DNA from: Yamagishiella unicocca
Taxonomy: Eukaryota; Chlorophyta; Chlorophyceae; Chlamydomonadales; Volvocaceae
Reading direction: 5' to 3'
Assembly: GCA_003116995.1 (NCBI GenBank)
Contig: BDSL01000039.1
Span: 558,001-622,000 of the forward strand
DNA: 64,000 bases
Made by a program: the position numbers and the translations under genes. The notes under the pieces were generated by a model. It was given only the letters and a program-made list of their open reading frames with translations. It did not search any database and was not told the DNA's origin. Numbering within the stretch: the first letter of the stretch is position 1; every line of letters starts with the position of its first letter. Below, piece by piece: positions 5,571 through 53,490 of this stretch.

Positions 5571-6243
5571 GCCCAAGTAAGATAGCCTGCTTACCACCGT
5601 CAGCGAGGTGAACGTGCGACCAGGAGCACGGCCGAATAGGCAAACCAAGGCGGTGGACGACGGGAGCACCGATGAAGTCGTGGCTGGCACCCGAGTCGAG
5701 CAAGGCAGTAAGGGCGAGGTTGACAGCAGTGACAGGGATCACAGGCAACGAACCACCTGTCGAAAGGGAAGAAGCAACTGCCAAAGAAGAGACAAAGGGC
5801 TCAGAAGGCGGAGCGGAACAGGGCAGTGCGGCGTCGTACCAAAACTCGGCGGCATAAGGCAGGCCAGGCAGGGTAACGGTACGACCATCAACAGACAAGC
5901 CAGCAAACAGAGACGTACCGGCAGCAAAGCGACGAAGACAACGCATACCTGAGAGGAGCGCGGCGCTGCGCGCGGCGGCGTGAGCCGGAACCAAGAGGGC
6001 CAAGGCGGAGTCAGGTCGGCGACGCTTGCATGCACGGTAGTGAGAAAGCAATGAACGCAAGTGCGAAACGGTGGAGGGAACCGCCAGGATTGTGTGACCG
6101 CCAACATCAACGGAGGAGAAGGAACGACCGCGGGGCGCGAATAGGTTACAAGAAGAGTCGAAACCAGCGCAAACAGCGACGGCATCAAACGTGAACGGGC
6201 GACCCACGGAAGTCTCCAACTCAGTGAATGCAGAAGTAATGTG
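5571..6243 (-). pseudogene. Retropepsin-like protease region (pol, 5' remnant)
   Basis: Contains the aspartic protease signature LLDSGASHDFIGAP. The frame is open back to a TGA at 6244-6246, which lies inside a 12-base inverted repeat marking the edge of recognisable element sequence. One extra base around 5571 shifts the frame before the RT part. No zinc-knuckle or gag homology is visible upstream. Confidence 0.75.
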
Positions 6244-10625: not shown

Positions 10626-13600
10626 TCACGCGCCCTCGTCCTCGTCCTCGCCCCCGCCCTCGCACGACACCACCGACCCAACCGACTCAAACCCCGACGA
10701 AGCGCCCAGGGGCTGATGCTGCGGCAGCAACGACTCGCCATCAGAACCGTCCCCTGCCTCCCCTGCGTCCTCCCCTGCCTCCTCCTCTGCCTCCTCCCCT
10801 GCCTCCAGGCCTCCGGCAGTGACGCTATTTGGGTCATCAGCTGCGGAGTCGTCGTCACCGTCCGCAGCCTTGCAGTCCTGCCCGCAGGAGCCCGCCGCCG
10901 CCGACCCTGCCACCTGCGACCCTGCCACCTGCGACGCGACCTCCCACGTCCCATCGCTCTCTATGACCTCATCTATATCCGGCACGTCGTCCGCCAGGCC
11001 GTCGTCATCCGCGTCATACCCCTCCACACCGCCGCCGCCACCCTGCTCACCCTCGCTGAGCAGACCGACGGCGCTGGCGCCATCTTCCCCCTCCTCGCCT
11101 GCTGCTGCTGCTGTTGCTGCTGCCGGAGATGAAGCCCCATGCGCTGATGTCGCCTCCTCGTGCCCAACACTCTCGCTGCCTTCCACCTCGACGCCTGCGA
11201 CCGACACAACCTCCTCCTCCTGCTGCTGCTGCTCCTCCTCCTCCTCCTGCTCCTCCCGGTCGTCACCTGCCGGCGCCAGCTCACCTCCAACCTCCACGCC
11301 GTCAACGCCGCCGTCGCCATCGCCGTCAACGCCGCCGTCGCCATCGCCGTCAGCCCCGATCGCGCACTCCCCACTGACCGGCGCCGACCAGGACGGCCGG
11401 AACTGCAGCCCGCTGCTAGCCCCGCCGCTGCTATTGCTGGCGCCGCCGTGGCTTCCCTGGAGCGCCTCATGGGTCCTTGGCTCCAACACCACGACGCCCT
11501 CTGTCTGCCGCCCGGCATCATCCCCCTCGTCATCGCTGCTGCCGCCGCTGCCGCTGCTGCTGCTGCTGTCGCTGCTGTCTCCGCCGTTGCCCTGGCCACC
11601 GCAGCCCGGCACGCCGGGGGCCCGCGGCGGCCGCTGCGGCGCTTCCGCCAACGACGCCAGGCCGAAGCCTAGCGCGAGACCCAGCCCGATTCCTCCACCA
11701 GGTGAAGACGCCAGGCGCCCAGTCATCGTCGACCCCGCCGGCAGCGAGGTCGCGAACGGCAGCGACCCGATCGACATTGGCACACGGGGCTCGGGGTACG
11801 GCGAGCCAGAGGCGGCGCCGTCGCCATCGCCGCCGCCGCCGCCGCGGCGCAGGCCGGACGGGCCGTGGGGTATCGCCTGGGGGCCCGAGGAGCCGCGCTG
11901 CGGCTGTGCCCCCGCCGCCTGGGCGATTGGCCCCACCGGTCCCGACCCGCCGTGCCGCAACCCACTGGGTGCGTCGGCATCCGGCAGCGCGCCGGGAGGA
12001 GCCGTCGCGCCGGCAGTGCCGGCTGCACTTCTTTGCTGCTGCGGTTGCTGCTGGTGCTGCGGTTGCTGGGCGGCGAGGAGGGAGAACGGCGACGGCGCAG
12101 TCGGCGAGGCAGGAGCAGCCGCAGTTCCGCCGGGAGCTGCCGCCTCCGCCGCTGTCGTCGGCGCCGGCGCTGAGGCCGCTTCGCCTCCGCTTCCACTTGG
12201 ATCAACTGCCGCCCCGCAATCCGACGTCCTTCCCGCGCCGTCGGCCGCCACCTCGGCATCCTCCTCAGTTCCGAGCTGGACGACCGCAGCCACGGACTGA
12301 TCCTCAGGCCCAACCGCCAGGTCGCGCCCTTCGGCCGTCCCCCCCGGCTCCGCCCCGGCTCCACTGCCGCCCGCCGCCACCGCCTCCCCGCCTCCGCTGC
12401 TTCGCGACCCACCAGCCGCGCCCCTAGAGACCCCAGACCCCGCCGCTTCCGCTTCCGCTTTCCCCTGCTCCTGGGTTTCGGAGCAGCCGCTCGGCGCCGC
12501 TTCTTCCCCTCGCCCCTCCCCGCTCTCTCCGCCCTCCCCAGCCGCGGCGAGGACGCCGCTGCCGAAGAGGCCGCCCGCCGCCTCGCCCTCGCCGTCGCCG
12601 CCGGCGGCGGTGGCCCGCTGAGTGAGCAGCGCCTCCAGCGCCGCTATCCGCTCCTCGTACGCAGCAGCGCGCGCCGCCAGCGCCGCCGTCTCCCGCTGCT
12701 GGTGCCGAATGAGGTCGTCCTTCATGCCCATAGCCCTCTGCATCGCCATCACCAGCTCCGCCGGGTCCCGCCGTGGCGGAGGTGGCGAGCCCCCCACCGC
12801 CGCCACCGCCGCCGCCGTGCCCGCCCCAGCGCCTGCAGTCGCCAGCGGCACCCCTATCCCTGCTGCTGCCGGCGATGAGGACGGCGCAACGCTCGTTCCG
12901 CTGGTCGATACGCGCGTGGGTTGGGACGCCGGCCCGACCGCATCAGCAGACTGTTGTTGCTGTTGCTGCTGTTGTTGCTGTTGTTGTTGCGTTTGCTGCT
13001 GTGACGTGGAGGTTGCTTCGCCGGCTCCCGCGTCCGGCGCCGTGAGCTCGCGGATGCAGGCCGCCGCGATGTGGTTGGCCAGCTCCGCGCGTAACCGGGC
13101 GTTCTCCATTTCGAGCGCTGCGGGGCGGGGGGCGCATCGGCATCCAGGGAGGTCAGAGGGGAGGGGTTGCGAGGAAAACCCGTGTACGAAGAAGAAGAAA
13201 CCGATTGGGACATGCGCTTCGGGGAGATGCATGCTGGAGAGCCTGGTTGAGGACGCTAAGAGGGAGGGAGGGAGGTGCCCCTCGTAACGCGGGGGGGGGG
13301 GGGGTAAGATGAAAACCCGTTGGCATTTGGGGGGGTTAGGATTGGGGTGATCAATTGCGCCTTTGCTCAAAGGGGCACCAAAGCATCGGCGGAGGGACGG
13401 CCCCTCAGCGGATGTTCCTGCACGGCTCTAGCGGCGTGCAGTTGCGTGCCGTTGCGTGCCGTTGCGTGCAGTGGCGCGGCAAAGGCAGCAGCACAAGGTG
13501 CGAGTGCAGGTTCAGCCCCGAGGCCGCCCGCAACGAAGGCGGCAGCGCCATCCGACACCAGGCAGGCGGGCGCCATCGAGCAGGCAGGCGAGCGCCATTT

Positions 13601-21054: not shown

Positions 21055-24000
21055 ATGCGAGCCAGGCTTCTCTGCCTGACTCTCTGCCTGGTGGCCGGTT
21101 TGGCGGATGAACTGCGGTGGGACAGCCCCTGGCCCTCCTGGGCACGTGCGCCCGAACCGCGGTCATTTGCTTCGCTGACAGGTAATGTCCTCTGGTGACG
21201 GAATGCGACGAGCGTCATCGTAAGCGCGCCTTCGTACCTCCCCGCAGGCTTCAGTAATGGCTCCAGCGTGTATCTGTATGGGGGCTTCTCTCATGCAAGA
21301 AACGCATGGCTGAGCGACGTATGGAGCCAGCAGTTCAACGCCTCTTGGGGACATTTTCTTATAGAAGATGGAGGTGTGTCCTGCGCAATGTTTCATTCGT
21401 GTTCTCCGGGTCAATCCAACGGCCGCCATGCGTCAATTCGGCTGCCTTGCAGACCTGCCCGGCCCCTTGGAGCATGCAACGCTGGTTGCGCTGGGCGACA
21501 CGCTCTTGTTAGCGGGCGGGAGGCACGGAAACGGCAGCTTCAGCAACACGCTATACAAATTGGACAACAGTAACTTACCCGCGAAATGGGCGGTCGCCCA
21601 GGTGCGCGATAGCTGCCGCACGCGGGGGGCGAACCGGGCTGCGACTGTGGCTGACGGTGACATACCGAAGGCCGGCATAATGGTTTAGTGGGGACATAAG
21701 GGGGGGGCGGGGAACCGGTGCGGGGTGATGCCGCCGCCAGATGCGCGTGCCTCCGCCTTCGTACATACTCTGCATGACTCGTGCAAAATGGGTTGGTAGC
21801 ACGAGGTATACGGGGCCCAGCACAGCCGCCGAAGGTATCCTGGGCGCGCGGGCGGGGCATGGGGCGAGGAAAGGGCGTGCACGTCTGGGGGGCGCGGGCG
21901 GGGCATTGGAGCTGGGTGGTTTACCCACATGGGTCCAGGGTAGAGCGCTAGGCAGCGCGCAGCGTGCGGCTCGCAGCGGGCAGCGAGCAGTCCGCAGCGC
22001 GCAGCAGCACCTGTTCGTATCCGGCGCTCGCGGTGGGCGGCACCCACGCGCTGCGCCCAGCTGTGGGCCTAGCCCCTGGCCCCATCCTCCTGAGAACAGC
22101 ATCATGCAGCAGCATTCTCGTTGAACACAGCGGCAGCAGCAGCGGTACTGGCAGGCAACAGGTGGGCACCAGGGGCAGGAGCAGCAGGTGGCGGGGCGCA
22201 CCCCTGCCTCCCCCCCGCCGTTGCTCCAGGGCCCCATTGTGCGAGCCTGCTGCAGCCTGACCGCCGAGTGCAGCGGCAGCGGCGGTCGCGAGGCGGAGCG
22301 ATATGGCGGCAGTGGCGCCGCCTAGCAGTGCTCGCGGGTGCCCCCCGGCACAACGCATGGGCGCCGCCCGGCACAACGCATGGGCGTTAACTGGGTCGGC
22401 CAGCCTTCCAGCCGGGCAGCTGGGGCTCACGCAGGCAGGAGGCGCTGGTGGCGGGGCCAATCCCTCCCTCACCCATGCGACACGAAGTACCTCCCGTGCG
22501 CGGTAGTTCCCATCCCACCCAACACCTCCTCGCGGCTCAGGCTGCCGGCCGCAACCAGCGGCAGAGCCAGTAGCATTAGCAAGCAGCACGAAGAGCGGCA
22601 GCAGCGCACAGAGCAGCAACGCCCGGGGCCGCTGTGGGGTGGCTTGCCACGCGCCCCTTCCTCCCTGCGGCACCCGGCCAGTCTGCCTCGGGTCGCAGCC
22701 GCAACCTCCTCCTTGCGGCGCATCCAACCATTTGGCTAGCCACGGGACCTGCCCACGTTGGCCTGCCCGCGCTGGCAGCTTCCTCAGAACTGGGTCATCG
22801 GGATTTACTTCAGGGGTGTCATTCGCCGCCGCCGCCCCTCAATTATCGGCCCCTGCAGACGCTCACCAGCGCCCCCCCCCCTTGCCCCTCCCCGCCGCGC
22901 CGCCGTTCCGTCAACGCAGACCGACATGCCGCAGCTGTACTGGCACTCGGCCGTGTCGTACACGGTGGATGGCTCGCCGCGCGTGCTACTGTGCGGAGGG
23001 CCGCTAACCGTGGATTCTGTGTACGAGCTGTCGTACGACAATGTAACGGCCGTGTATTCCATGACTGCCATGTAAGCCGCTGTGTTGTGCTGGCGTTTGC
23101 GCTGGTGGGGGGGGGGGGAGAGGAGGACAGGGAGGGAGGGAGATGGAATGCCAGGGGGGCAGTCCGTATCCTCCACGCCGGTGGTTGGCAGCCAGGAACG
23201 GCGGCGCAATATGGGGTGTGTAGCACCCACACATGGGTGGGGATGGTGGTTGGGATCCACACATGGGTGGGGATGGGAATCCACATATGGGTGGGGATGG
23301 TGGGTGCACTGGGCCGGCGGCGACGACGCTTGTTGGACCGCCCTGCGTGGCTGTAGCCAGCAGCAACTTTCATCAAGTACCCGCCTCTCTCTTTCTGAGC
23401 AGTGGTCACTAAAACCCTAACTCCCCCAATGACTCACATGGCCACCCACAGGGCCCGCCTGCCGCGGCCCGTGTTTGGGCATTCGTTAGCGGTTGGCGCG
23501 GACTCGCTGGTCTACCTGTCAGGCGGATTGCATAATCTCAACGACCGATGGGACGAGCTGCCGGTCCGTGCTGTGCCGCCGAGGCTGGGCGCGACAATGG
23601 CGGGGGCAGCGGACACGGGGGTCACCCCATCAGACCACGTGTATCTCTTCAACCGCAGTGCCGGCGTGAACGGCAACTGGTCGGACTTGGGATCGGTGAT
23701 GGGTCACGCCACCGCGTTCCACTCGAGCTGGATGCAGGGTAGGTCCCGGGCGGCGAGGGCGGCGAGGGCGGGAGGGAAGGATGCGGGCGGTAGGGAAGGT
23801 AATGCGGGGCGCCGTCGTCGTGGGCGCGGGTTTAGGCTTTAGGGTTTAGGGTTTTAGGGTTTAGGGTTCTAGGGATGCAGCGTCGGGAGCATCAGCCTTG
23901 TCTAGGGGCGCTCGGGCATTCTGGAGAGTACAAACAAGCGCGGCACGGGTCGTGTTTCACGCCTTCCTCCCTCCGCTTTCCGTTCTCTCTACATGCCGAC

Positions 24001-27000
24001 CCCCGGGTCTCCTCTTGGACCCACGGGCCCCCTCTTGAACCTACGGGTATCCTCTTGGACCCACGGGTCTCCTCTTGAACCCTTCCCCCTCTTTGTCCCC
24101 GTGCGCCAGGCTCGGCGCTTTTCGTCCACGGCGGGGCCCAGGCCCTTGCGGGGAGCGGCGTCTTGGCGCCGTACGGGCTGCAGGTCGTAGCGATGTCCGG
24201 CAACAGCACGTCGTACGATTTGGATGCCGTGCAGAAGGCGGCGGCCCTGTGGGGTGACGTGCAGCCGACCCAGCTGTCCGGCGCGGCGGTGTGGGCAAAT
24301 GCCAGCCCGGAGGTGGGTTGGAAGGCGGGCAGGGGGCATGGCGTGGGGCGGGGCGGCACGGCCATTTGAGTCGCATGCGGGGAGGAGGGGTGGCTCTGAC
24401 GGGGGCTTGCCGTTCCGCTGTATCCGCCGCCTCCCTGTACCGGACTGTGCCGCCTGCGCCGTCCGGACACCTTCATCTGCCCCACATTACACCACAATAC
24501 CACCCAGCACAGCATCACCCGTCACCCATCACCCGTCACAGCATCACCCGTCACAGCATCACCCGTCACAGCATCACCCGTCCCTTACCTCCCTTCCCCC
24601 GGGGGGCCCCGTCCCGCTCCCTAGTCCCCGTGCTTACCCTCACAAACCGCGCCCCGCCACTGCCGCCCCACAGCCGAGCGTCTGGCTCTTCGGCGGCTGG
24701 GCCACCCCGCAGCCCCTGTCGCTCGCGGCGGACACCTACCAGGCGCCGCAGGACAGCAGCCTCACGTGGCGCCTGGGTTTCGGAGCGGCTGGCTCGCGCT
24801 GGCTGGCGCCGCAGCAGGGCGGCATGGCGCCACGCAGCGGCGGGGGGGTGATGGCGGTGGCAGTGACGGTGGGGGGCTCGAGGAAGCTGCTCAGCGTGGG
24901 CGGCCGAGCGCTGGGCGGCTGGACAGGTGCGGTAGGGGGGCGTGGGTTTCGGAGCCCCGGGGTGTAGGGGGGCGAGGGTTTCGGAGCCCCGGGGGGCGAG
25001 GGTTTCGAAGCCCCGGGGTGTAGGGGGGCGAGGGTTTCGGAGCCCCGGGGGGCTGGGAGTAACCCGGGCAACGCTTGTGTGTGTGCGGAGAATAGGCCGG
25101 GCAGCGCGGCTTCAGCGCGGCCCAGCGAAGGGAGCGAGGTGGTCTGCCCTCCGTTTCCTACGTCGTGTAACCGAGCCTTCCCCCCCCCCCGGCCACGGTT
25201 TGTCGGCCGTAAATTCGCGGATTCTCTCACAATCCGCCCCTGACGGGTCTTCCTCGAACCCCCGGCTGACCCCCGGAACCTCCTGCCCTCCCAGGCGCCT
25301 CATCCTCCGGCGGCAGCTCCCGGTTCAACCTAGCAGACGTCGGCCTCCCGATGCCGCCCAAAGCCTCGCCGCGGGTAGCGGCCGAGTCGTACCAGTTGTA
25401 CGACATCTGGTTGATCGACCAGGCCACCGGCGCCCGCGAGGCGGTCTGGCTCTCCAACAGTACGACACTCGCTGCGTCCGCGGCCTGCGGCGGCGGCAGC
25501 GGCGGCGGCAGCGGCGGCGGCAGCGGCGGGTGCAGCTCGCTGCCGTTCGGCACCTCGGCCTCGCCGGTGTCGTGGGGCCCCCTATGGGACCGCCGCCTGG
25601 TCGAATACCTGCCCGTCAGTGGCAGCAGCAGCGGCAGCAGCAGCGGCAGTAGCGGCGGCAGTAGCTCGCAGGGCGGGGGCAATCAGGTGGTGTATATGCA
25701 GGCGGCGGAGGTACAGGAGTCCTCCGGGGCGGCGTTGCAGGTGGGTGGGTGGGCGGGCGGGTGTTGGGCAGCGTAGGTGGCGGGTGGGTGGGTGGGTGGA
25801 TGCAACGGGGATGGGAGGGGGTTCGGCGGGGTGGGTGGGAGAGGGTTGGTGGGAAGGGGGTGATGGGAGGGGGTGATGAGAGGGGGTGATAATGTCATTT
25901 TGTACGGGCGCAACTTCCCCCCCTACACACCCATGCACCCCCACCCCCCGACACGCACAAACACACATGCACATGCACACCGACACACACAAACACGCAC
26001 TTCCCCCCTACACACACACAGCGTCTGACCGTGTTGGTACGCCGGCCCCCCTCTTTCCTGGCCATCCCACGGTCCTCCCCCAGGTGGGCATCTGGGTCCT
26101 GACGCTCACAGCGCAGCAGCTGACGGCGGCGGACGGCCCCTTCACCGCCTACACGGCCACCTGGCAGTCGGTCCTGCCGCCCACCCCCTCGCCCGCCTGC
26201 TACCCACGCACCCTCACCACCGCCACGCACCTCACCGCCGCCGCCGCCGGCTCCGGAACCAGCTCCACGTTGTCGTACATCGCGGTCTTCGGTGGTCTGG
26301 CGCTCAAGGTGGTCACGAAAGACTCGCTGGCGGCGCTGCCACAGGCCAGCGTGTGTCTGCTGGAGCTGGCCGCGAACGGCAGCCGCTGGTTGACGCCGCC
26401 GGAATACGCGCCCTCTGGTGCACCGCAGGTAGGCGTCCGGAGGGGAACAATAGCTATCTCCGTGACCATCACAACAGGATGCAGAAATGTTTTTGGGCAT
26501 TTTCGCAAACACCTTCAGCAGTAAAAAGTCTGGACTATCAAGTTGTGTGTTGGGGGGATGCACGTTCTCCCATGGACCCTGCCGTACATGTCGCACACGC
26601 CGTCTTACGTGGGGAATCGGGCGCACCACACACCGCGGCTGCTTTTCATTTCTCGTTATCCTTGCATAACAGCTCCCTTGGCATCGTGTTGCACACCGCT
26701 GCTGCTTATCCGTTCTCGTTATCCTTGCATCACAACTCTAGTGGCATAGTCTTGCGCGCCCAGCTCGGTGGCAAGAACACTGTGTCGGCGCATAAGCCCC
26801 CCGCCGCAGCTCCCTCGCCGTCGGCGCGCCACCCCCGCCCCCCGCCACCCCCATTCCCTTGCCTTCCCACTCGAAAAAGCACCCGTCAATCACACCCCGT
26901 CCGCCTACTCAACAACACGTGCATCAGCACAAACTCCCAACTCCCAACTGCCAACGGTCCTAACCGACGCCCCCAGGCCCGCTACCGCCACGCCTGCGCC

Positions 27001-30000
27001 GCGCGCCCCGGCCTCGCCTCCTTCTCGATGACCTGCTACGGCGGGATCTCCGAGGACGGCAAAGGAGCGCTAGCCGACGCGTGGACGTTCTCGTGGCCTG
27101 CCGGCATATCTTCGCGCCTGTCAACCCATCTTGGCTCCTGGAAGCTGGCGCCTGCGAACTACTCGGCGGTGCGGCCAGGGGCCCGTGTTGACCACCTGAT
27201 GCTGCCCATGCGAGGTGCGCTGGGCGCGGGAGCGGGTGTGTGTTTTAAATATGTGTTTTCAGTATGCTGAGCTGCGCCGCGAAGGAGACTGAGCGCGAAG
27301 AGACCAAGGAATAAATATGTGTGTGTGTGCTTGTGTGTGTGTGTGGTGTAAGGATAACCCGTGTAAGAAGGAAAGACCGTCTGGGACATTATACGTTTGG
27401 AGATGCATGCTGGAGGACTTGGTTGAGATAGCCGTGGGTCGGGATGGGGGTGGGAAGGGGAGACCCGTGGGTCGGGAGGTGGGGGTGGGAAGGGGAGACT
27501 GGCTGTGGCGCTCCGCGTGTGTTGGGCGAGCGGGGTGGGAGATGCGGACCGGGGTGGAGGGGCAGTGGGTGGAGCTGTGTTTGGAGTTCCTGGCGTGGCG
27601 GGCCTGACGAATTTTCGGGGAGTGGAGGTGTCGCAATTTCTCCTGTGCTCCGGGCCTCATTTGCGCCACTCCCGCACGTCGCTCTGGCTCCTGAGCATCC
27701 TTCTCCCATATTGGTCTCGAGTATGCAGAGCGTTTCCTACTCGGCTGTCCTTCGAGTGCCGTATGCCGGCCAACGGGGCTCCTCTCTCAAAACCCCCAGT
27801 GCCGCACTCCCCCCGCACCTGTCGGTGCCCTGTCGACGCGCTGACATCCAGCCGGGGGGGACCTGCCTGGCTGTCTCCGCGTTTCGTCCCATGGGTCTCT
27901 CCCGACACGACACCCCAGCAAGTGTGCGCCGGTCCCCACTCTGAGCCCAACCCTGAACCCCCAACCCCCGACCCGCAACCCTGAACCCTGAACCCTGAAC
28001 CTTCAAACCCCAACCCCCAACCCTCGAACCCCCAACCCTGAACCCCCAACCCCCAACCCCCAATCCCTGAACCCCCAACCCTGAACCCTGAACCCCCAAT
28101 CCCTGAACCCCCAACCCTCAACCCCACCTCCGCACTACCAGGCTACAACGCCGCGGACGCCGACAGCACCTCCACCGCGGCGTCGAAGGCCGTCGCGCCC
28201 CTGTCCGTCTCCGACTACTCCCCCGTCATCCTGGTCGGCGGGGCCCTCAGCACCGCCGCCGCCGCCGAGGCGGCGCGGCGGGACGTTTGGCTGCTGGAGG
28301 CTTCGGGCTGCGTGGACCCGGACATGGGTGACCCCGTTGCTGCCGCCAGCGGCCCCACCATGCCGCAACAGGCGGCGCAGGTGTGGCTGTCCGTCCTCCC
28401 CAAGGCGGCCCCCGTGGGCGCCGCGGAGGACGACTGGGCGGTGGTGGCGGCAGGAGTGGTCAGAAGCGAGGTGGGCGGCGGGGTTGGGGTGGGGGGGTGT
28501 GCAAAGAAGACCCGTGGGCACGACCGTGGGAGGTGTAGCTGGCGCATGGACTTGGGATGCCTGGTTGTGCGCGCATGCTGGCGCCAGAGAACCACTCCCT
28601 CCTTACCCCAGTCTTCGCCCGATGTCAAGGGATCCTGTCATGTGACCGTTATATGTCGTTAACCCGGTCGTTATATGTCGTAAGGCTGACGCGCACGCGG
28701 CCTGCTGCCCGCACGTCCGCAGACGAGCCTGGAGATATGGTTGGTGGTTGCGAACCCGGATACGCTGGTGGACGAGCTGCGCGCCGTACGTGTGGTTTCG
28801 CCTTTGAAAGCAGGTGAGGCACCCAGCTGCAGAGGGGCCCGTTGAAACCCGCAGCCGCGTCGAGATCCAGGGAACCTTTCAGAGGCTGGATGCAGCTGCG
28901 GCTGGCTTTCCGCGGTTTGAGGGTTCGGGGGGTTTAGGTGTTTTTTTAGGGTTTTGACGGCGATGTACTATGTTGTGGGCGATCCACGTGGCGTGCGTGC
29001 GGTGTAGCTCCTAGTCGGGTCTTCCGGGCTTTCTTCCAACGCCGCGCCGAGCGACATCGCGCCTTCCTGGGCACGTGAGTGACCCCTTTCCAAACCCACC
29101 TGCCCCCTCCCCGCAACCTCCTCCAAACTAGCAACATCCCTTCCCAAACGTCGCCGTCCCGCGTTTGTCTTCTACCCACTCACCCGCCCGCCCACCCACC
29201 CGGCTCCCCTCACTGCGGCGACGACAGGCTGTCTGTCCACGTCCATCCGACCGTACTGCAGCAATCTGTCGTACGCGTACGACGCCGTCGCCAGCGCATG
29301 CTGGCCCGGCGCCGCCGTGGTGCCTTCCCTCGAAGTCAAGCATGCAGACAACCGGCCCCTGCCGGGCGACTCACTGACCCGCTCCATCGGGTTCGCATTG
29401 TACGACCCCAACGGCGTGGGTCTGCACTTCAAGGTGAGGCCTAGCCTGCACGGAAACCTGCCCGCAGCCAGCATCGGGCCCGGCTGGGGCATCGGGCCCG
29501 GCTGGGGCCCGGCCCGGGCCCCTGGGGGCCGTACCGTTGCGGCAGCAGATGTACGGCTGCGTGGGTGTGGCGCAATGCAAGCTATGGAGAGTGGCTAAGG
29601 CGGAGGCGCCCGGCAGTGTGGGGTAGCGAGGGAAGCCGTGTGGGAGGAAAGAGGAGAGGGGAGACTGTTGGTTGGTCGGTCCTCTTCACCATTCTGTTTT
29701 TCTCCGCCGTGATTCAGCATACGCTCTCTCCTCAACTCTCCCGGCCCGACGAGTTAAAATGCATGACGTGCGCGGGCATCATTGATACCCAGACAGGACC
29801 ACCCCCTGCAACCCTCTTATGCGGCCACGGGGGGGGGGAGGGTGAAAATATATCCAGAGGGGGTGTACACGACCAAGCCCCTGAACCCTCTCATACACCA
29901 CCAGATGCCGCCGCAGTTTACCATCAACAATGTACCGAACTAAAGCAACCGCACCCAACCAACCCCAACCAACCCAACCAACCAACCCAACCAAATAACC

Positions 30001-33000
30001 CAGCCAACCAACCCCAACCAACCAACCCAACCAAGCAACCCAACCCAACCCAACCCAACCCAACCCAACCCAACCCAACCCAACCCAACCCAACCCAACC
30101 CAACCCAACCCAACCCAACCCAACCAGCCCGCTCTCCGCACCCGGCCCCCCCTCTTGGCAGAGCTCTTCGCTTCCTAACGGTGCCTCCTACTACATCTAC
30201 GACGTCCGCCTACCGCCGGCCCTCAATAAGTCCGACCTGACGATTGTGTCGTACGGCAAACCGTACGTGGAAATTACTCGCAGCACGGGCTCGTCGCCCA
30301 ACATGTCGTTCGACGTCATCGACTTGGCTGCGACGGTACGCAAGCGGCGGGCACGAGGTCTGGGGAGAAGCCCAGGGTCGTGGGGTGTGGCAGGAGGAAG
30401 GGGGGGGCGGGAGTGGAGCTGGCAGGAGGGAGGGGTTAAGGAGGCGCCGGAGGAGGTGGCCGAGGTCAGGGAATCGGGGGTCGGGCGATGTGTGAGGGTA
30501 GAAAAACAAGGTGAAGGGGACGATGCCGCTCGGCCCGCAACGCACCCGCTGTCACCACATATTAGGCTATTGCGACGTTGAAGACGCCTCTGCCCTTGTC
30601 CACATCTTACCACACCCTGTCCACACCTACCTGCCGTATCTATCATACAGCTCTGGTGCCAGGCTCATCCCCCTCACAGCCGCCCCAATAGGCTATAGGC
30701 TGACGGTTTCTCGCCTGCCGGTCCCACACTGGTCGTATCCTAGCCTGACCGATACATTGCTTCATATGACCAAAACACATCTCTGCGCTACCCCCATCAC
30801 ACACCTTACCACAACCCTAGTACCTATACCAGGGCCCCCTCCCCACTCCCCACGGCAATCCCCCCCCCCCCACTCCCCACCCCAGATTCTCAGCGCCAGC
30901 GGCAAGTCATTGAGCAACATCACTACCGAGCTGCGCGTGCTGTACAACGGCTTGTACCGCAAGCGGAGCTGCTCGGGAATGGCCGAGCTGGGCAACGACT
31001 GTGACGTCGCCGTCAGCAACTCGCTCGGCAAAGTGAGCTTCACTGTCTTCCCCGTGAACCAGTCCCAGCCCGTGGCGGTGTCGTACGCGGTGAGTGCCGT
31101 ACGGAGCAGACTGGGCTCGGGCGGCGGGGCGCGGTGGGGCGGAGGCGGGCTCCCCGCCGGCGGCGGGGCGATCATAACCAACCCTGGCATGTGTTATACC
31201 AGCCCTGACATGTGTTCCTTCCTTTGGTGTTGGCGGGTGTAAACTGGACCCAATGGGGCAACCGCAGTGTACTAATGCGGCGGCATTTACTGCCGCATGA
31301 ATGCACGGGGATGGGGGCAAGGTACATTGGGGGGGTAAATAATATCCGCGAATCTACATGGGGGGATGCAGAAAAGAACTGGGGGAATCGACATAGTGAG
31401 GAATCCCATTAAGGGAGCGGCGTGGACTCGTGGCCACGTCTATGCAGTCTCGCCGCAGTGTTCGTCTTGTCTACAGCCTTTCCATCTCATGTTCCTCAAC
31501 TTGGACGACAGGGCTAAACCTGTCCGGCACCACCCGGCATCCCTCTGTCCCCCTTCTGAACCTCCACCACCCACCCACCCAGACACCCACCCAGACACCC
31601 ACCCAGACACCCACCCAGACACCGACCCAGACACCCACCCAGACACCCACCCAGACACCCACCCAGGCACCCACCCAGACACCCACCCAGACACCCACCC
31701 AGGCACCCACCCAGGCACCCACCCAGACACCCACCCAGACACCCACCCAGGCACCCACCCAGACACCCACCCAGACACCCACCCAGACACGGGCCATATG
31801 GGACCACGTAATCGCTATCTACCCCCCATCCACGAATCCCCCTATCTACCCCCCATCCACGCAATTTACGGTTTTCCTCGCACCCCCCCCCCCAATCCCC
31901 CAACCTACGTATTTTCCTCGCCACTGCCCAGCCACGCATTCACTCTCGACCCTTCCCTGCCCTGTCCTGTCCTGCCGCCCTTGCAGTTGATCGTCTGGAG
32001 TCCGACGCTTGACGGCACGACCTACGCCGCCGAGCTGCCCTCACACGTCGGCGCCGCAGCTGGCGGCTCCTCCACCATCATCGGCACCGGCGGCATATCC
32101 GCCACCCTGCTGTCTGACAGACTGAGCCTAGCCTACGCCATCACCTTGCCGGCAGCGGCCTCGGACAGCAAAGTCGACGTCACCTTCAACATCACCTTCT
32201 GGCCGCCGCCGGGCGTTCAGCTCCGCCTCCCCGCCAACAGGTGACCCCTGCAGCCGCCCATCCCCGGGGCTTCCTTCGCAACCTCCTCCCCCCCGCCCCG
32301 GTTTTTCTTGCCCTTACGTTGCTGTCCACATCGCCTAGCTTCCAGCAGCTCCCGGGTGGGGCTGCGGGGACGGAACCACGTGGCTCTGCGCTTCACCGGG
32401 AGCCTGGGGCTTGACTGTGCGTGGGTCGCTGCGTGTTGATCGCGAAGTCGAAAGTAGCTAGGGAGGGGTACCGCGGGAGCGGCACAGGGGGAGGGGTACC
32501 GGGCGAGGTGCCGGCTCACGCCCATGCGACCAGGAGGCTTCGGCTGAGGAGTCGCCAATTGACTGCAGGGGGGCCAAAGGTACTAGCATCGCTGCTGTTG
32601 CCGCCGCCACTCGCCGCCACCTCCGCCCTTGCTGTCGTACAGATTCGTACACACGTGCGGAGTGCGTGTCGCCATGAAGCGTGCAGCGCACACGCCTCCC
32701 GACTCCCCAACATGCTTTTATCATGGCGCAATGGATCCCAACTTGGGGGGAAAACCCTAATTCCCTCTCCCCCTCCGGGCCTACGTCGTGTAACCGGGTC
32801 TACTCGCCCCCCCCCCCTGGCACGCGCGTGTAGGCGTTGGTGCGCCACCTTCACTCGGTACATTGGACCCAACAGCCTGGATTCGAAATCGGCAGTAACC
32901 TTGAACGAGAGCTACTCGGCAAGGAGGATCAGCCAGCGCATGGAACCAGGATCCTACGCGTACGAGGTACGGCAGCCGAAAGCGTGAGGCCGCGGTACAA

Positions 33001-33819
33001 CCCGGCGACTTGACCCACCGCCCCCCTCCACCCTCCATCCTTCCGCCGTATTGCTACAGTCCGCACCGCTGGTTGGCGATAACCGCAACCGCCATAGTTC
33101 CAACTCCCAACCGGCACCAGCAGCTGATCACCAGCCCCGCCCCCCTAGCTCTGTTTTAAACGGTTTTTTCGGACATCCACGGGTTTCCCTCGAGCCTCCC
33201 TAGCTCCAACACCACGCACGCCCGCGAATCGCGGCTAATGAGGCACAACAAAACCCACCTGAACCCCCTTTCCTTCCCCCCACTTGGCATCTGCCCTCGT
33301 CCCTCTTTGTCCCTGTTTGTCAAGTAACGGTTCACCCTGCTCGCCGTATCCAGCCCATCCTGTCTCCCAGTCATGTTCTTCTTTTTCGCACCACCCAGCC
33401 CATTCACCCTTCCCTTGCCTGCCTGTCGCATGTCCTCCTCCTCCTCGTGGTCCGGTCCTGACACTCGCCGCCTTTGCTCGCTCATTTGGTCTTTCCATTC
33501 TCAGGTCAGTCTACTTCTCCCAATTTAGGTCGCACGTAACGGGGCGGGTTCACCTGTGTTGTTTTTTCGGTCGCATTCACGGGCTCTGGATAGGTTATGG
33601 GGCTTCTCTCCGTCTCGCCTCCATTGGCGTCGCATATTTTCACGAACAATATTCACTTCTTCCGAACAGCTTCTCCGCCAGCCGCCTTCCCTTACTCTTT
33701 TAGTCGCTTTCATAACACCTTTCCTTACCGCCTACGCTGCCATACCATCTCTCTTGGCCTGCCGACCGTGGATTCGCGGATGATTACCTATGACCCCCCT
33801 CGTGTACCCGCGTCTCTCG

Positions 33820-33891
<72 letters not shown>

Positions 33892-36800
33892 TTAACACAC
33901 ACACACACACACCCCTCCATCCGCAGATGCTCGACAGCAACCCTCTTTTCAGCCTGACGACCGGAGAGGCCACGGTTTCGGAGCAGGCGGTCGTGCCAAT
34001 CGACGTGTACATGTCGTCCATAACTTTCCGCGTCGTGTTTTCTCGCCTGGTGTGGCCGTCCTCCCTGGAGCCCAACCCCAAGGCCACCAGGATGATGGTG
34101 CGGCTGGGCATCGCACCGCCTGCCGTACCCGAGGGGCCGCTGATGCTGCCCGCCGCCGCCGGGCTGGGAGTGTCGTCCGAGATGTATTGGGACGAGCTGA
34201 TGATCGCGGACGACGGGCAAGCCACGTTCACCGTGATCCCAAAGTGAGTGCGGTTTTCTCAAAAGGCTGTTTGGTGGTGGCGGCTTTCAGGTTTCAGGTC
34301 CAGGGTACGGAAACAGGGGGTGGGGCTGGGGTGAGCGGCTGTTTTGTTACAGCGCCTCCTTTTCCGGTGGAGCGGGGGGGGGAAGGGGTTAGCTTTGGTG
34401 TGTGTGTGGCGGCGGGGGAGTGGCTGGCAGGCTCATGCTTGGTCCAGCCGCTGCCTGGCACGTCCGCTTACCCATCCTTATCACGCGCCCCCCATCTGTT
34501 ATCCGTTACGCCCCCCTCCCCCAATCTGTTCTGCAACCCTCCAAACCTCCCCTTCCCCCACCCCTCCCAGCACGCGCTACGTGGTGTTGTACCGACCCTC
34601 GGGTCTGTCCACGGTGCTGGCGCAAGAGTACGTTACGTCAGCGCCCTTCACGGTGGCTGGTTTGGGCGGCAACGACACCTTCGTCAAGAAGCTACCCCAG
34701 GCGTTGCTGTGCGGTCCGGAAACCACGACCTACATCCAGCAGCAGAAGGGGAAGTTCCCGGCGGATGACGTCAACCCCGGGGATGTCGTGTATGCCTTGG
34801 GTGAGAGCCGGCTTGATGGCGGGGGGGGGGTGCAAAAAGACCCGGCTACTCGAACGTGGGAAGCGCAGTTGGCGCACAGGCTTTGGGCACCTGGTTGCGT
34901 GCGCTTTGTGGGTGGGTGGGAGAGGGAGGGCAGGAGGCGTGGCGAGGGGCACGGCGGGGAGGGGAGGGAGAGGAGGTTTTGCGCGGATGGCGGTGGGAGT
35001 TGGCTGGGGGTGGGGGTGGGAAGGCCTGCCGTACTGGTCGCGAAACACAGCGCCATTGGCGTCGTTGTGTTGCTCGGCGCTACGTGGCGGTCGGATCGGA
35101 AGGCATCGTTGTTGTGTCCCTCCCAGCGGGCCACCACTGCAGCCCAGCACCACCACCTTCACCGCCCTCGGTTTGTGGGCCGTGGGATTCCCGGAACCTC
35201 TTATACCCCCCTCCCTCCCCCGCGCAGCGTGGGCTCCCTACGCCCGCATATCCTCAAACCACCGCGCGCCAGACTCGTCACCTTAGTCACCTCGTCACCT
35301 GTTGTACTACGCCTTAACGAAAAGGACTTGCAAGTGGATGTCCAATCTCGACACATCCTCGTAGTGCCCAGGGTACAACATCACCCCCCCCTTTCTGCCC
35401 TTCCCGGCATGCGACACGATCCCACTCGTACCCGGTGCGATCACACACGCCAGCAACCCCGTGCACCTCCAGCGACAACCCGCAGTCCCTGCCCCCCCCC
35501 CCCCCCCCCGCCCCGCCCCGTCCAGATGTCCTATGGCTATGCGCCCGCTACACTTCCCCAAGTCGAGCTACCGGTCCTTTGTTATGTAACCCCCCGGCCC
35601 CCCGTCCGCTGACTTTCCTCACAAAACCCTTCCCGCCCTGCCCCCCCCCCCGCCCTGGGGGTCTTCCTCGAAACGCCCCCCCCCCGGCCCCAGGCACCAA
35701 CTGCATGTGGATCATCTCTACGGGTATGCCCATCATGCTCCTGCGGCTGAACTACACGGGGCTGGGCCCCAACGACTACATCAATCTGCAGACGGACACG
35801 GGGTTCGTCATGAAGCTGTCCGACCAGGACGGAGTGTTCGCGATGAGGATGACGGCATCAAAGTGAGTGAGCGGCAGTGGGGGGTTGGCGGGCGGGCGGG
35901 CGGGGGGGGGGCGGCGCGGGTGATAGGGGCACGGCGCGGTCCGGCGCAATGAGAGACGGCGCCATTGGCGGGCGGTGGCGCGGACCCATGGGTCGGTCGG
36001 AGGAGCTCCGTGCACGTGCGCGTGAGGGTGAGCGTACGCAGCTGCAGCGGGCACGGACAGGCGAACGCCGGCGGACCTCATCTGGTAATTTTCGTCCGCA
36101 ACTTTATGGTCGGTATTCGGGCGGGTCGGGACCGTGCCGCGGCTGCCCGCTCTCCCGTCGCCGCCTCCCCCAGTTCTCCAGCTAGCGCCCAAAGCCAACC
36201 GGTTCCACGAAACGTTTCCTTGCGTCGCGCGGGGTCCTCGCTTCCTTCCCGCCGTAGCCGATTTAGCTTAGCCGTAGCCGATTTAGCTTAGCCGCTGATG
36301 TTCGACTTACGACCTTCGTCTTTCTATCCTCAACCCAGTTCTCCAGCATGCATCTCAAAAAGGCCTGTTCTAAACGGTTTTTTCGGGCATCCACGGGTCT
36401 TCCTCGAACCGCCCCCCACACACCCACACACACCTCCTCCCCGCTCACTCTCCTGCCGCCGCAGCGTCACCATCCGGTTCCGCACGGGCAGCGACAACAC
36501 CATGAGCGTCCATTTCACAGTGGAGTGGGAGGGCCAGGCCCAAAACACCTCCATGCCGCCCCAGTTCATCATGATGATCGCCGCGTCGTCAGCGGCGGCG
36601 GGGGCCATGCTGCTGTTCCTGTGTCTCTGGCACTGCGTGTTTAGGCCGGTGCAGATGAGGCGGCAGGTGGGCGCTGGGCGGCAGTTACGGCGGGAGCCGG
36701 CAGTTACAGCGGGGGTGGGCAGGGGTCCGGAGCAAGGAGGGTTCACCCGGGGGGGGTGTTCGGAGCAAGGGGCCCGGTCCTCAGCGCTCGACACCCCAGG

Positions 36801-39800
36801 CTTCGTGGCCCGTCATTGTGATCATTCCGACAACGTTTCTGGAAAACACGATCTCAGCCGCCGTCCCCGCAACCCCTCATGGCCTGACGAACTGACCCCC
36901 GCAACCACGGAACCCCCCCCACACACCCACCCGACCCCCCTCCTCGCCGATTTGACCTCTGCCCTCCGTCTTTCAACACCGTGTGACGCCGGTCTTCTCC
37001 TCCACCCCCCTGCGCCGCGCAGCAAGCCGCTGCCGCCCTGGCCGCCGCGGCCACCGCCGGTGCCGCCGCTGGCGCCTCGGGCGTGCGCAGCGGCGCCAGC
37101 CGCACCCGGGTGCCCCGCCGCTACCTCCGCATGATGGAGACCACCTCGTACTCCTCCAAGGACACCCTGGCCAAGGCCCCGGTCCCGAAGGTGGTGGTGG
37201 TAGAGGCGGCGGCGTCCAAGTCCGCCCTCACCGGCCTGTCGGAAGGACCCGCCACGACCCCCCTTCATGTGGAGGTGGGGCCGGGAGAGGGGCCGGGGGG
37301 GGGTGTTACAATAGAAGGACCGGCAACTCGACTGGGGAAATGTAGTGGGTGCATAGCCTTCAGTGCAGGGCCAAGGGGGGGGATTTAGGGTTGAGGGGGG
37401 GGGTTGGTTCGTCAGGCCATGAGGGGTTGCGGGGGTTATGCTGGGAAAGGAGGCGAGCAGCGGCGACGGCGGTTGCCGGTCATGCGAGTATACGGGTAGG
37501 AGGGGAAGCTGCGGGAGGCCCTTGAGGCGCCAGGGAGGGGACTGCGCGCCCGGTGGGGTGAAGCTGGTCGTACTGGTTTCGGGGCCGCGATGTATTTTTA
37601 TGATGCGCTGCGCTGCGCGTGAGCGCGAGCGCTGTTTTGGAAATAGCGAGTACCGGTGTCGCGGCGCCGTTGCCAGGGGCGAGACGGGTGGGGCTCGGTG
37701 CACACACCGGCTCAGCACCTTGCCACCCTCCGCTACCCAACCTCAGCCGCCCGCCTCACCCCCCTCTCATCATCCTGTCTGTGCATCCTCCTCATTTCGC
37801 ACCCCCCTCACCCCCCTCACCCCCCTCACCCCAAAGTGCCGTATCTGCCCCTCCGGCCCATCCCCATCCCCATCCCCATCCCGACCTCCATAGATGACCG
37901 TCATGTCGCCCAAAGCGGAACCTCCGCCACCTGCCGCCGCCGCCGCCGCCGCCGCCGCCGTCGCCGCCGGCACTGCCGTCGCCGTCGGCACCGTCATGAC
38001 CGACGCAGCGGATCCGCCCAGCGGCCCCGCCAGCCAGAGCGAGCCGGAGGCCGCCGGCGGGGAGGTCTGCTCCATCTGCCTGTCCGAGTTCGAGGACGGG
38101 GAGCGGGTCAAGCACCTCCCCTGCAAGCACTTTTACCACGTGGCGTGCATCGACCAGTGGCTGGGCCGCGACATCACCTGCCCCCTCTGCAAGGACAACG
38201 TGCTGGACGCCATGCGGGCGCTCTTCGGCCCGCTGCCGCCGAGGAGCGCCGTCCGACCCGGCGGCAGGGCAACGGGCGTGGGTGAGGAGGACGACGGCGC
38301 CAACGCAGCCGCAGCCGCAGCGGCGGGAGCTGCGAGCCCCGGGCTGGCGCCCGCCGCAGCAGCGGCGGATGGAACCGGCACCGGCGCCGGCGCCGCAACT
38401 GCGGATTTGGAGATGGTGGTCATCTTGCCGCGCCCGCCAGAAGTCTCCGGCGCCAGCGCTGCTGGCGGCGGCGGCAGCGGCGGCGGCGGCGAGGCGGGCG
38501 ACGGCCGCCACGATCCTGGTCTGCCCGGCAGCACAGGGCCCTGGGACACGGCGGCGGGGGGGCAGGTGGTGTTGGGGGGGGTGGGCGTGACGCCGCCGAA
38601 CGCGGGGCCGCCGACGGCGGCGCCCGGCGGTAGCGGCGGCGGCGGCGTCACGGCCGTCCCCGTCTCGCCGGCGCTGTTGGCGACGGGAGCGGCCGACGCC
38701 GCCGCCGCCGCCGCCGCCGACGTCCGTACGGCGTCCACTGCACAGTCCCGGGAGCTGCGGCCCATGCGGCGGAACATCAGCACCGACCTGACGACCGAAC
38801 ACTACGGCACCAGCACAGACTCCGACAGCGACAGCGAGTTCGACGTCGCCGCCGCCGCCACCGCCAACAACACCAACAACACCCACACCCACACCGTCGG
38901 CGGGGGACCCATCAACTCCAGCCGTAGCAGCCCGCCGGCAGCGGACCGGGCGTTCCAAGCCGTGGCTCACCCGACCTCCGGACAGGGACACCCGCACCAG
39001 TACCAGCACCAGGGCACGTCTGCAGCAGCGGGAGCCGGGAACCAGCTGGTGGTGCCGCCGCTGGGGCTCGCCGCCGCCTTTGGCAGCAACGGCAGCGGCG
39101 GCCGCGGCAGCGGCGGCGGCGCCGCCGCCCCCTCGCCGTACTTCGAGACCAGCGTGTTGACGCCTAGCCCTCGACCCGTCGTGGAGCACGTGCAGCGCTC
39201 GCCTTGCAGCGGCGGCGGCAGCAGCAGCGCCTTGCGCTGGGTGGGCGGCGGCTCCTCCCAAGTGATGCCCATGCCGCGGCCGCCGGCGCTGTCCCACGTC
39301 TCCACCCAGCACCGCCTGCCCCGAGCACAGGAGGCGCAGATGGCCGTCGCAGCCGCGGCGCTGTCGGCGGCCGCCGCCGGCGTCAGCGGCGGCGGCAACA
39401 GCTGGCGCACCGCCTCCACCACCTCCGCCGGCGACGGCGACGGGGTGTCCTGGCACCACCCCCACGCGGGGGCCTCACCCCACCCGCCGCCGCTGGATTC
39501 CCCAACCGCAACCGTCCTCAACTACCGGATCCACAACAACCCGCTGGCGGCGTCGTCTCCATCGGCCGGCGGCAGCCCACGCGCCATTGACCAGTCCGCC
39601 TCGGAGGAAAGCCACGCCGGTGGTGGTGGCGGCGGCGCGTCGGGTTCGCCGGGGGTGGTGGCTGTGATGCCGTACAGCCCCCCGCTCCAGGGGGGCCTGG
39701 CGCTGCTGCTGCCCCAGAACGGCCCCACCAACCCGACCGTTTCGGTGCTGTCCAGCAGCCACCTGATGGACCCAAGCCGGCGCAGCAGCGCCAGCAGCAA

Positions 39801-39969
39801 CGGCGGCGTAGGGACTGTCCAAGTGCGAGCTGCGGGCACGCTGGCGGTGCCCGAGGTGTGCGCGTCCGGCGATGACTTGATTCGAACGCCAAGCGCGATG
39901 GCGCGTACGGCCGGCGGCGCTGGTTTCGGAGGCGGTAACGGCCCCGCCGCCGGCGCGCACGTGGGCTGA
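21055..39969 (+). CDS. Kelch/CUB-like ectodomain, single-pass membrane RING-H2 ubiquitin ligase (23 exons, about 2,320 aa)
   Basis: Exons: 21055-21181, 21248-21373, 21453-21601, 22920-23071, 23452-23738, 24110-24312, 24674-24926, 25295-25740, 26084-26428, 26977-27214, 28142-28470, 28723-28813, 29228-29433, 30162-30335, 30886-31089, 31987-32240, 32834-32966, 33927-34243, 34571-34800, 35694-35862, 36465-36666, 37023-37274, 37894-39969. All are GT-AG and in phase. A signal peptide (MRARLLCLTLCLVAGL) leads into about ten kelch blades, residues 45-885, each with a Gly-Gly core (VYLYGGF, LLLAGGR, VLLCGGP, LVYLSGGL, LFVHGGA, VWLFGGW, IAVFGGL, MTCYGGI, VILVGGA). Residues 915-1390 are an unassigned beta-rich region, 1395-1510 CUB-like, 1513-1537 the membrane helix, and 1688-1728 RING-H2. 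A 590-residue Gly/Ala/Ser tail ends the protein. Inferred role: a membrane E3 ligase whose activity is linked to an outside or luminal ligand. A split into two genes is possible but not supported by the phases. Confidence 0.86.
23830..23875 (+). repeat. Interstitial telomere-like TTTAGGG array in kelch-RING intron 5
   Basis: Five to six units mixing TTTAGGG and TTTTAGGG, the telomere unit of chlamydomonadalean algae, about 90 bases after the exon 5 donor. Confidence 0.85.
24485..24585 (+). repeat. Minisatellite (CAGCATCACCCGTCA)n in kelch-RING intron 6
   Basis: Five to six tandem 15-16-base units. Confidence 0.8.
24940..25060 (+). repeat. Tandem repeat (GGGTTTCGGAGCCCCGGGG)n abutting the exon 7 donor
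   Basis: Four imperfect copies of a unit of about 19 bases with spacer variants. The array starts about 14 bases after the donor at 24927. Confidence 0.8.
27350..27430 (+). repeat. R1 partial copy in kelch-RING intron 10
   Basis: AACCCGTGTAAGAAGGAAAG, then GTTTGGAGATGCATGCTGGA and GGACTTGGTTGAG, matching the first part of R1. Confidence 0.65.
27946..28127 (+). repeat. Degenerate CCCTGAACCCCCAA array in kelch-RING intron 10
   Basis: Variants of CCCAACCCTGAACCC over 180 bases, C-rich on the coding strand, ending 14 bases before the exon 11 acceptor. It resembles a decayed telomere-type array (C-strand CCCTAAA). Confidence 0.75.
30037..30125 (+). repeat. (AACCC)n array in kelch-RING intron 13
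   Basis: About 17 perfect CAACC/AACCC pentamers preceded by looser AACC units, ending 36 bases before the exon 14 acceptor. Confidence 0.9.
31568..31790 (+). repeat. 12-base minisatellite (ACACCCACCCAG)n in kelch-RING intron 15
   Basis: About 18 copies, with ACAC/GCAC variants at the unit start. Confidence 0.92.
33820..33912 (+). repeat. (CA)n microsatellite in kelch-RING intron 17
   Basis: More than 40 dinucleotides with one ATATTTAA interruption, ending 14 bases before the exon 18 acceptor. Confidence 0.95.
36068..36410 (-). repeat. Dispersed repeat R1, copy B, in kelch-RING intron 20
   Basis: Reverse-complement match to copy A (581-942) over its whole length, including the CCGACCCGCCCGAATACCGA block, the CGGCTAAGCTAAATCGGCTA block (with a local tandem duplication) and the TTCGAGGAAGACCCGTGGAT terminus at 36410. 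Confidence 0.85.
36465..36666 (+). other. End of CUB-like module plus transmembrane helix (kelch-RING exon 21)
   Basis: VTIRFRTGSDNTMSVHFTVEW is the closing strand pair typical of CUB modules. Exon 20 (35694-35862) supplies the earlier CUB features CMWIISTG and NDYINLQT. After a short linker comes the hydrophobic run FIMMIAASSAAAGAMLLFLC, stopped by basic residues (FRPVQMRRQ), which gives an N-outside, C-inside topology. Confidence 0.8.
38068..38190 (+). other. RING-H2 zinc finger of the kelch-RING protein
   Basis: Spacing is C-x2-C-x14-C-x-H-x2-H-x2-C-x10-C-x2-C, with core pieces CSICLSEFEDGE, CKHFYHVACIDQWL and CPLCKDN. All eight zinc ligands are present, as is the Trp after the sixth ligand used by many RING-H2 ligases to bind the E2, so the domain should be active. 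Confidence 0.95.
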
Positions 39970-52090: not shown

Positions 52091-53490
52091 CTAATGCCGC
52101 CTGGGGCTCTTCGCCGCCGGGCCGCTGCTGCACACCCGGCAGAGCAGCAGTTTCTTGGCTAGCAGCTCCACGTCATCTGGCTTGCACTTGGCGTGGTAGG
52201 CGGTGGGGCAGCGCACGCACGCCATGATGGCTGCACCCTCGCCGCTGCCCGTGCACACAGCGCAGGTGTGCAGCGGGCAGCGGAACTTGGTCCCAGCGGC
52301 GCCGCCACCCCGGCCGGCGCCGCCACCGCCACCGCCACCGCCCCGGCCTCGACCTCGAACTCGCCCAGAGGGGCTGCGCGCGTCGCTTCCGGCGGCGCCG
52401 GCGGCGGCGCCGCCGGCGGCGGTGGACTTGGTGAAGGGGTGTGCAGCCGCGCACTCCGCGTGGTACCAGCGGCCGCAACTGGCTTGTCCGCACTTGACGA
52501 GTCCGGCGGAGGTGGCGGAGCCGTCGGCGGCGTCGCGGCCGCAGACGGTGCAGGGGTGCGCGTCGCGGAAGCACTGCTCGCAGACGGCCTTGGCCTGTGG
52601 GGGGTCGTTGGGGGGTCGTTGGGGGGTCGTTGGGGAGTCGTTGGGGGCCGATGGCGCTCAAGTCCAAGCCCGTCCCCCTAACGTCGTGCGTGGTGTCGCC
52701 GTACTGTCGTAGTACCCCATGGGCGCTTTTTGCGGCCGAGGCGACAGGCGGGGCTGTCTGGACCACCGACCACCGGTTCTCTGACGGTTCGTCCAAACTT
52801 CGACGTGCTCGCACATGCGTGAACCAGCCGCCCATCAACAGCGCCGTCAGACGCCACAACCCTTCATCAGGTGTACGAACAACCGCCTCGCATGAAGTGA
52901 AGTGGAGTGAAGCTTCTGTGGAAGTGCTCGCCGCAACCTCCAGAAGCTTCCCTAGAAGCTTCCAGAAACTTCCTCTACGCGACGATACGCCGCTGCCGCT
53001 GCCGGGACCGCCGCCGCCGTTGCGCACCTGTTCGTACTTCTCCGGCTTGACGGGCCCGGCGCAGGCGGTGTGGAAGGTCCGCCGGCAGGGGCCCTCGCAG
53101 CCCCAGTGGGTGCCTCCCGCCGCCATGCCGCGAGCATCAGCATCCGCAGGCAGCGCCCCGAAGCACACCTGTTGGCCGGGTGCGTGCGGCCCGGAGGCAT
53201 GTGTTGAAGTATATAAATTCTTGGGGAGGGCGGTAGGGTGGTGAAGGACGTGAAGGCGAGGTGTACCATCAGCAGGGGTCACGAGTTCGAGTCGCAACAA
53301 CAGTGGAATTTGTAGCCCCCCAAAAGTGGTGACAAATAGATGCAGGGGGGCTGGATTCTCGCACCCACCGTGCCATCACCGGCGAGACCAAGACGGCAAA
53401 GCAATGAACCACCACGTAACCGCCAACTTACCATGCACACCACTAGCGGCAAAACGCTAAACCGCCACGTAACCACCAACTTACCATGCA
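52091..53490 (-). other. PHD zinc-finger cluster (EDM2/NSD-like) at the C-terminus
   Basis: First finger: CM at the end of exon 9, then VCFGALP, WGCEGPCRRTFHTACAG. Then VCEQCFRDAHPCTVCG, KCGQASCGRWYHAECAA, FRCPLHTCAVC, MACVRCPTAYHAKC and LLLCRVC. The order (Cys/His-rich linker, CG.WYH..C, F.CPLH.C..C, C.RCP.AYH..C) matches the extended PHD arrays of plant EDM2 and animal NSD proteins. A Gly-rich insert interrupts the last finger pair. Confidence 0.88.

Follow-up and report, generated by a model that had tools for sequence, protein, structure and literature searches.

A predicted single-chain kelch, CUB and RING-H2 membrane ubiquitin ligase of volvocine algae

Gene structure and homologues

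The window, a stretch of 64,000 nucleotides from Yamagishiella unicocca, contains a gene of 23 exons whose GT-AG joins give a single open frame of 2,320 residues, in agreement with the phase-matched exons of an earlier note made from the letters alone. In order, the product comprises a signal peptide, a kelch region, a divergent beta-rich middle, a CUB-fold module, one membrane helix, a linker, a RING-H2 finger and a low-complexity tail. The gene is found in volvocine algae, and its predicted product is most likely a ubiquitin ligase that crosses the membrane once, in type I orientation.

21055..39969 (+): whole gene; 23 exons with GT-AG introns throughout, one frame of 2,320 aa, homologues matching in frame
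Exons 1-8 (+): 21055-21181, 21248-21373, 21453-21601, 22920-23071, 23452-23738, 24110-24312, 24674-24926, 25295-25740
Exons 9-16 (+): 26084-26428, 26977-27214, 28142-28470, 28723-28813, 29228-29433, 30162-30335, 30886-31089, 31987-32240
Exons 17-23 (+): 32834-32966, 33927-34243, 34571-34800, 35694-35862, 36465-36666, 37023-37274, 37894-39969
21055..21111 (+): signal peptide, residues 1-19; as the earlier note had read it, the N-terminus being hydrophobic in this protein and its homologues, judged by eye
21112..28812 (+): kelch region, residues 20-915, exons 1-12; Pfam PF24681/PF24981, ten conserved diglycine strands, fold match of the first propeller
28813..34703 (+): divergent beta-rich middle, residues 916-1389, exons 12-19; low conservation, low-confidence beta model
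34704..36549 (+): membrane-proximal CUB-fold module, residues 1390-1506, exons 19-21; fold match
36550..36663 (+): membrane helix and borders, residues 1507-1544; conservation, with residues 1507-1536 identical in all five proteins
38068..38190 (+): RING-H2 finger, Cys1688-Cys1728; pattern, Pfam match, solved relatives
38191..39966 (+): low-complexity cytosolic tail; conserved motifs ELRPMRR (1916-1922) and RAQEAQMA / AAAALSA (2106-2113, 2115-2121)

GC content at the third codon position is higher than at the first and second positions in every exon (0.54-0.92). Twenty of the 23 exons are matched in frame by all four homologous proteins, and exons 16, 17 and 12 by three, two and one, respectively, with weak match scores for several of the middle exons. 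Intron 5 holds a short run of TTTAGGG-type telomere-like repeats (23838-23868, +). Elsewhere in the window, frames at 2231-6243 (-) resemble, by eye, reverse transcriptase/RNase H and an integrase with a chromodomain, as in a Ty3/gypsy-like LTR retrotransposon, and a Cys/His-rich frame at 52173-53375 (-) resembles a PHD finger, also by eye.

Protein searches recovered homologues from four genera: Edaphochlamys (HYH03_014612, 2,359 aa), Chlamydomonas (CHLRE_16g651400v5, 2,553 aa), Astrephomene (Agub_g7745, 2,536 aa) and Volvox reticuliferus (Vretimale_2421, 2,148 aa), all of them gene predictions themselves. Each is a single protein with precomputed matches to both kelch and RING, and the five proteins, with pairwise identities of 39-50% over the full alignment, all have the outer part followed by the same helix and the same RING. 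The claim that receptor and ligase halves lie in one chain is thus upheld, by the single frame here and by the four predicted proteins; absence of any orthologue with both halves, which the earlier note had named as fatal to its reading, is not what was found (4/4 homologues have both). From SEPEAAGGE to NVLDA, a segment that takes in the RING and the border upstream of it, the window protein is identical to that of V. reticuliferus. With about 8,000 candidates scored, the matches listed contain, besides these four homologues, two further RING proteins, which lack PF24681/PF24981.

No second copy of the gene was found in this genome with the CUB/helix exons, the first-propeller exons or the RING. 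This locus was the sole match both for the CUB/helix exons (three candidates scored) and for the first-propeller exons (residues 19-436), in a six-frame search that overlooks short exons: a PF24681 family search gave 53 matches, this gene's own exons not among them. Fifteen other RING matches in the genome have at most 47% identity. Four RING-H2 matches on small contigs (C189, C504, C514 and C597) have an equal score of 48.4 bits, as if from a repeated element or duplicated contigs.

Outer domains, membrane helix and RING-H2

Repeated diglycine strands and a propeller fold identify the kelch region. The earlier count of about ten blades agrees with the ten diglycine strands found, which are retained in all five proteins, and with the Pfam kelch match. 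A first six-bladed propeller (about residues 30-430) is backed by the fold match, and a second is probably present, judging from the remaining strands. The attractin-type kelch family PF24981 matches all four homologue pieces (best 4.4e-21), the general kelch family PF24681 scoring higher, and falls below the cut-off in the window protein. The predicted kelch model has a mean pLDDT of 41 and is fair only across roughly the first 200-270 residues. A comparison with viral structures reached TM-scores of 0.19 at most and was left out of account. Invariant residues number 203/896 in the kelch region (42-50% pairwise identity) and 46/480 in the poorly predicted middle region (916-1395), with pairwise identities of 17-80% for the stem. 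The membrane-proximal module has the beta-sandwich of a CUB domain in fold comparison of its predicted structure, and does not reach the Pfam cut-off (CUB_2, best E 0.0054; score shown 16.1 bits against a cut-off of 23). Cys1392 and Cys1425 are its only invariant cysteines; many CUB domains are without one of the two disulphide pairs. The proposed kelch and CUB-like exterior therefore stands for both modules as folds, the CUB below its Pfam cut-off. Both folds serve in binding, more often of proteins at surfaces. The retention of the diglycine strands in all five proteins, together with the invariant kelch residues, shows that the outer part is under selection.

Conservation within the protein peaks in the helix and its borders, ahead of the RING (41/65 residues invariant) and the kelch region. 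A run of 30 residues, SMPPQFIMMIAASSAAAGAMLLFLCLWHCV, is identical in all five proteins, and 36 of the 38 residues of the helix and its cytosolic border are invariant (95-100% pairwise identity); the next longest invariant run, within the RING, is of 10 residues. The predicted model has one 36-residue helix extending into the cytosol, at low confidence (47-63 by block). A membrane helix kept merely for its hydrophobicity normally exchanges residues, so near-invariance here, unusual as judged from general knowledge, implies a contact. Small residues are a usual packing face of a helix, and this one contains the small-residue stretch AASSAAAGA. The earlier note had taken the kelch surface to select the targets; that is not supported by the data here, and conservation rather suggests that the most constrained contact is the membrane helix. 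The invariance could instead serve self-pairing or sorting.

The single clear hydrophobic helix and the strong enrichment of N-x-S/T sequons in the outer part only fit a type I orientation that puts the RING in the cytosol. Outer sequons number 22, 29, 20, 22 and 42 (window protein, then P0001-P0004), against shuffled means of 8.0, 11.1, 8.3, 7.8 and 11.7; this is 2.4 to 3.6 times expectation, and 0/500 shuffles reach the count in each protein. In the inner part there are 5, 6, 3, 7 and 3 sequons against shuffled means of 2.9, 3.0, 2.0, 3.7 and 2.9, an excess of 1.0 to 2.0 times, with 76, 34, 158, 30 and 297 of 500 shuffles reaching the count; the two homologues with 34 and 30 of 500 thus show a slight inner excess as well.

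The RING-H2, described earlier as intact, is indeed so: its C3H2C3 metal-binding pattern is complete, and PF13639 matches well over the cut-off (9.7e-14, 51.8 bits against 27.3). Pairwise identity over the RING is 74-95% in the five proteins. The nearest solved relatives include RNF165, RLIM, RNF13, Arkadia and EL5, with ZNRF3 lower down, and AT5G66160 is also among the matches. RNF165, RLIM, RNF13 and EL5 are active ligases, and what we take to be the E2-contact positions of such relatives (Ile beside the second Cys, Trp and Pro) are present. Between the helix and the RING, the linker has 6/136 invariant residues and 68% of its columns gapped, and such variability fits a flexible reach and not tight positioning. 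A single cytosolic YLRM, a sorting-type sequence (Y-x-x-hydrophobic), is found in four of the five proteins. In the tail, the motif RAQEAQMAVAAAALSA at 39322-39369 (+, residues 2106-2121) is nearly invariant in all five; we know of no function for it.

The tail (38191-39966, +) has no lysine across 588 residues, with 28 arginines, and the tails of the five proteins (518-677 residues) hold 0, 1, 1, 0 and 2 lysines. Lysine deserts have been reported for ubiquitin-pathway proteins (PMC10169902). Relative to arginine, lysine is rarer in the tail than in the same protein's outer part in four proteins (P 0.0002, 0.018, 0.0003 and 8e-6) and not in Chlamydomonas (P 0.257). The whole inner part holds 5-8 lysines per protein, three of them within the RING. 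Two Ala/Ser/Gly/Pro-rich open frames of the window, at 10626-13427 (-) and 53443-56118 (-), of 933 and 891 aa, are lysine-poor like the tail, the first having 5 lysines, 38 arginines and a lysine-free run of 529 residues. The poverty of the tail in lysine was therefore rejected as a strong sign that the ligase acts on other proteins, other frames of the window being lysine-poor too and Chlamydomonas showing no such deficit.

Comparison with known membrane ligase systems

RNF43/ZNRF3 and the plant RMR proteins have the layout of the PA-TM-RING proteins. In a review that counts 49 predicted human transmembrane RING proteins, PA-TM-RING members (GRAIL/RNF128, RNF13, RNF167 and others) combine a signal peptide, an outer domain, one helix and a RING-H2 in one chain, and are described as the only ones with an extracellular or luminal domain (PMC4021871). 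ZNRF3/RNF43 are targets of R-spondin action (PMC12752501 and PMC8513608). The algal protein has the same single-chain layout (its signal peptide judged by eye), and RNF13, AT5G66160 and ZNRF3 are among the matches of its RING. In contrast to these proteins, its outer part is kelch plus CUB, and it is far larger and has a long low-complexity tail; Pfam scans of the window protein and homologue pieces gave no PA match, kelch and CUB being found instead. The union of receptor and ligase in one chain is thus no new idea, being anticipated by the PA-TM-RING layout (PMC4021871). Kelch, CUB and RING-H2 together make a combination of domains that is new for a protein type already known: among the matches listed in the open-licence literature, with abstracts represented by their opening lines, no description of the three in one chain was found. 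An open-licence search with the gene names gave no papers, and the word "kelch" does not occur in a review of transmembrane RING proteins or in a survey of plant RINGs.

The propellers of MEGF8 and attractin are of the kelch type. Three papers (PMC8513608, PMC12752501 and PMC13161197) describe for MEGF8/attractin (ATRN, ATRNL1) with MGRN1 an arrangement that the algal protein resembles in one chain: an exterior of six-bladed propellers and CUB, a beta-rich module next to the membrane, a helix extending into the cytosol and a RING ligase inside. The MEGF8 helix runs inward, which positions MGRN1 beneath Smoothened, and similarity between MEGF8, ATRN and ATRNL1 peaks in the helix and the cytosolic helix (PMC13161197 and PMC12752501). 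The algal helix is likewise the most conserved part. The membrane-proximal M-Stem of MEGF8, however, is described as a new jellyroll without close relationship to known ones (PMC8513608, PMC12752501 and PMC13161197), whereas its algal counterpart is CUB-like, and the algal RING is fused and not recruited. No M[AS]SRP was found in the five proteins for the MGRN1-binding motif MASRPF(A), the looser MASxP occurring once, in one homologue (P0004), and Pfam scans of the window protein and homologue pieces list no EGF-like or PSI repeats. Membership of MEGF8/attractin was rejected on the missing motif and the fused RING. Independent evolution, which the earlier note had supposed, is likely though not proved, on the grounds of the motif's absence in 5/5, the lack of EGF/PSI matches and the RING-H2 relatives.

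The kelch substrate receptors LZTR1 and KLHDC2 of cullin-RING ligases are cytosolic adaptors of multi-subunit ligases, whereas the algal propeller is outside the membrane. Plant ATL ligases have a membrane helix and RING-H2 as here, but are not known to have a large outer domain. Also in the green lineage, LOG2 and GDU1 provide membrane-tethered ubiquitination with a single-pass partner, but as two chains with an MGRN1-like RING and no kelch/CUB receptor described, in the part of PMC13161197 concerned; the pairing of a recruited RING with a single-pass adapter therefore also occurs outside animals, because plant LOG2 works with GDU1 (PMC13161197).

A candidate receptor-ligase and its alternatives

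The best explanation, about as likely as not, is that the product acts as an E3 ligase of type I membrane topology, binding a partner by way of its helix and outer domains and attaching ubiquitin to it. Outside, a kelch propeller, probably joined by a second, would be followed by a variable stalk rich in beta structure and by a CUB close to the membrane; inside, the variable linker after the helix would hold the canonical RING-H2. The protein would sit beside a partner membrane protein, gripping it via the near-invariant helix together with the outer domains, and with an E2 the RING would ubiquitinate the cytosolic side of the partner, which would then be taken up or degraded. The outer domains may set which partner or ligand switches the ligase on, as in RNF43/ZNRF3 or MEGF8-MGRN1; given how fast the outer part evolves, a single conserved protein ligand is not obvious. 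We infer E2 binding and activity, cell-surface location, partner and outcome alike. More tentatively, this may be a volvocine one-chain switch like MEGF8/attractin-MGRN1, evolved independently of animals, in which a kelch/CUB receptor would remove specific membrane receptors by ubiquitination, the frozen helix recognising targets in the membrane and the fast-evolving propellers tuning the response, so that kelch/CUB and RING would have come together at the membrane twice. If right, the gene would represent an undescribed class of algal receptor-ligases able to set the sensitivity of cells to outside signals, in a lineage used for studying the origin of multicellularity, and the natural fusion would give independent support to the animal model of propeller/CUB receptors bringing a RING to membrane receptors. 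The frozen helix offers one short segment as a direct handle for finding the partner, and the Chlamydomonas homologue CHLRE_16g651400v5 makes the proposal testable in a genetic model.

The chief rival, possible but rather unlikely, is a sorting receptor like RMR, whose outer domains would bind soluble cargo or wall material in the Golgi or vacuole lumen while the RING-H2 regulates the receptor's own traffic. The YLRM sequence in four of five proteins would suit this, and the invariant helix could serve as a signal for pairing or sorting; however, PA is missing from the Pfam scans of the window protein and homologue pieces, and kelch and CUB are more often surface protein-binding folds. Its plant-lineage precedent lies in the RMR (Receptor Membrane RING-H2) vacuolar receptors; AtRMR1 and -2 owe their TGN localisation in part to dimerization (PMC5085694).

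Somewhat less probable again is an adhesion or matrix receptor whose RING tags only itself and so controls its own lifetime. The fast-evolving, sequon-rich outer part is as in cell-surface adhesion proteins, and RING ligases often self-ubiquitinate; the few inner lysines (5-8 per protein) speak against it, albeit weakly, since other Ala/Ser/Gly/Pro-rich frames of the window are lysine-poor too. A Golgi or endosome quality-control ligase, reading unfit membrane helices with its own helix while its outer domains matter little, would account for the helix being the most conserved segment, but the diglycine strands kept in all five proteins and the 203/896 invariant kelch residues make it improbable. 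Lastly, although the gene models here and in the homologues are predictions, an artefactual fusion of two adjacent genes is rejected as very improbable, with the same join in all four homologues found and with exon 21 alone running from the last part of the CUB module through the helix into the beginning of the cytosolic portion.
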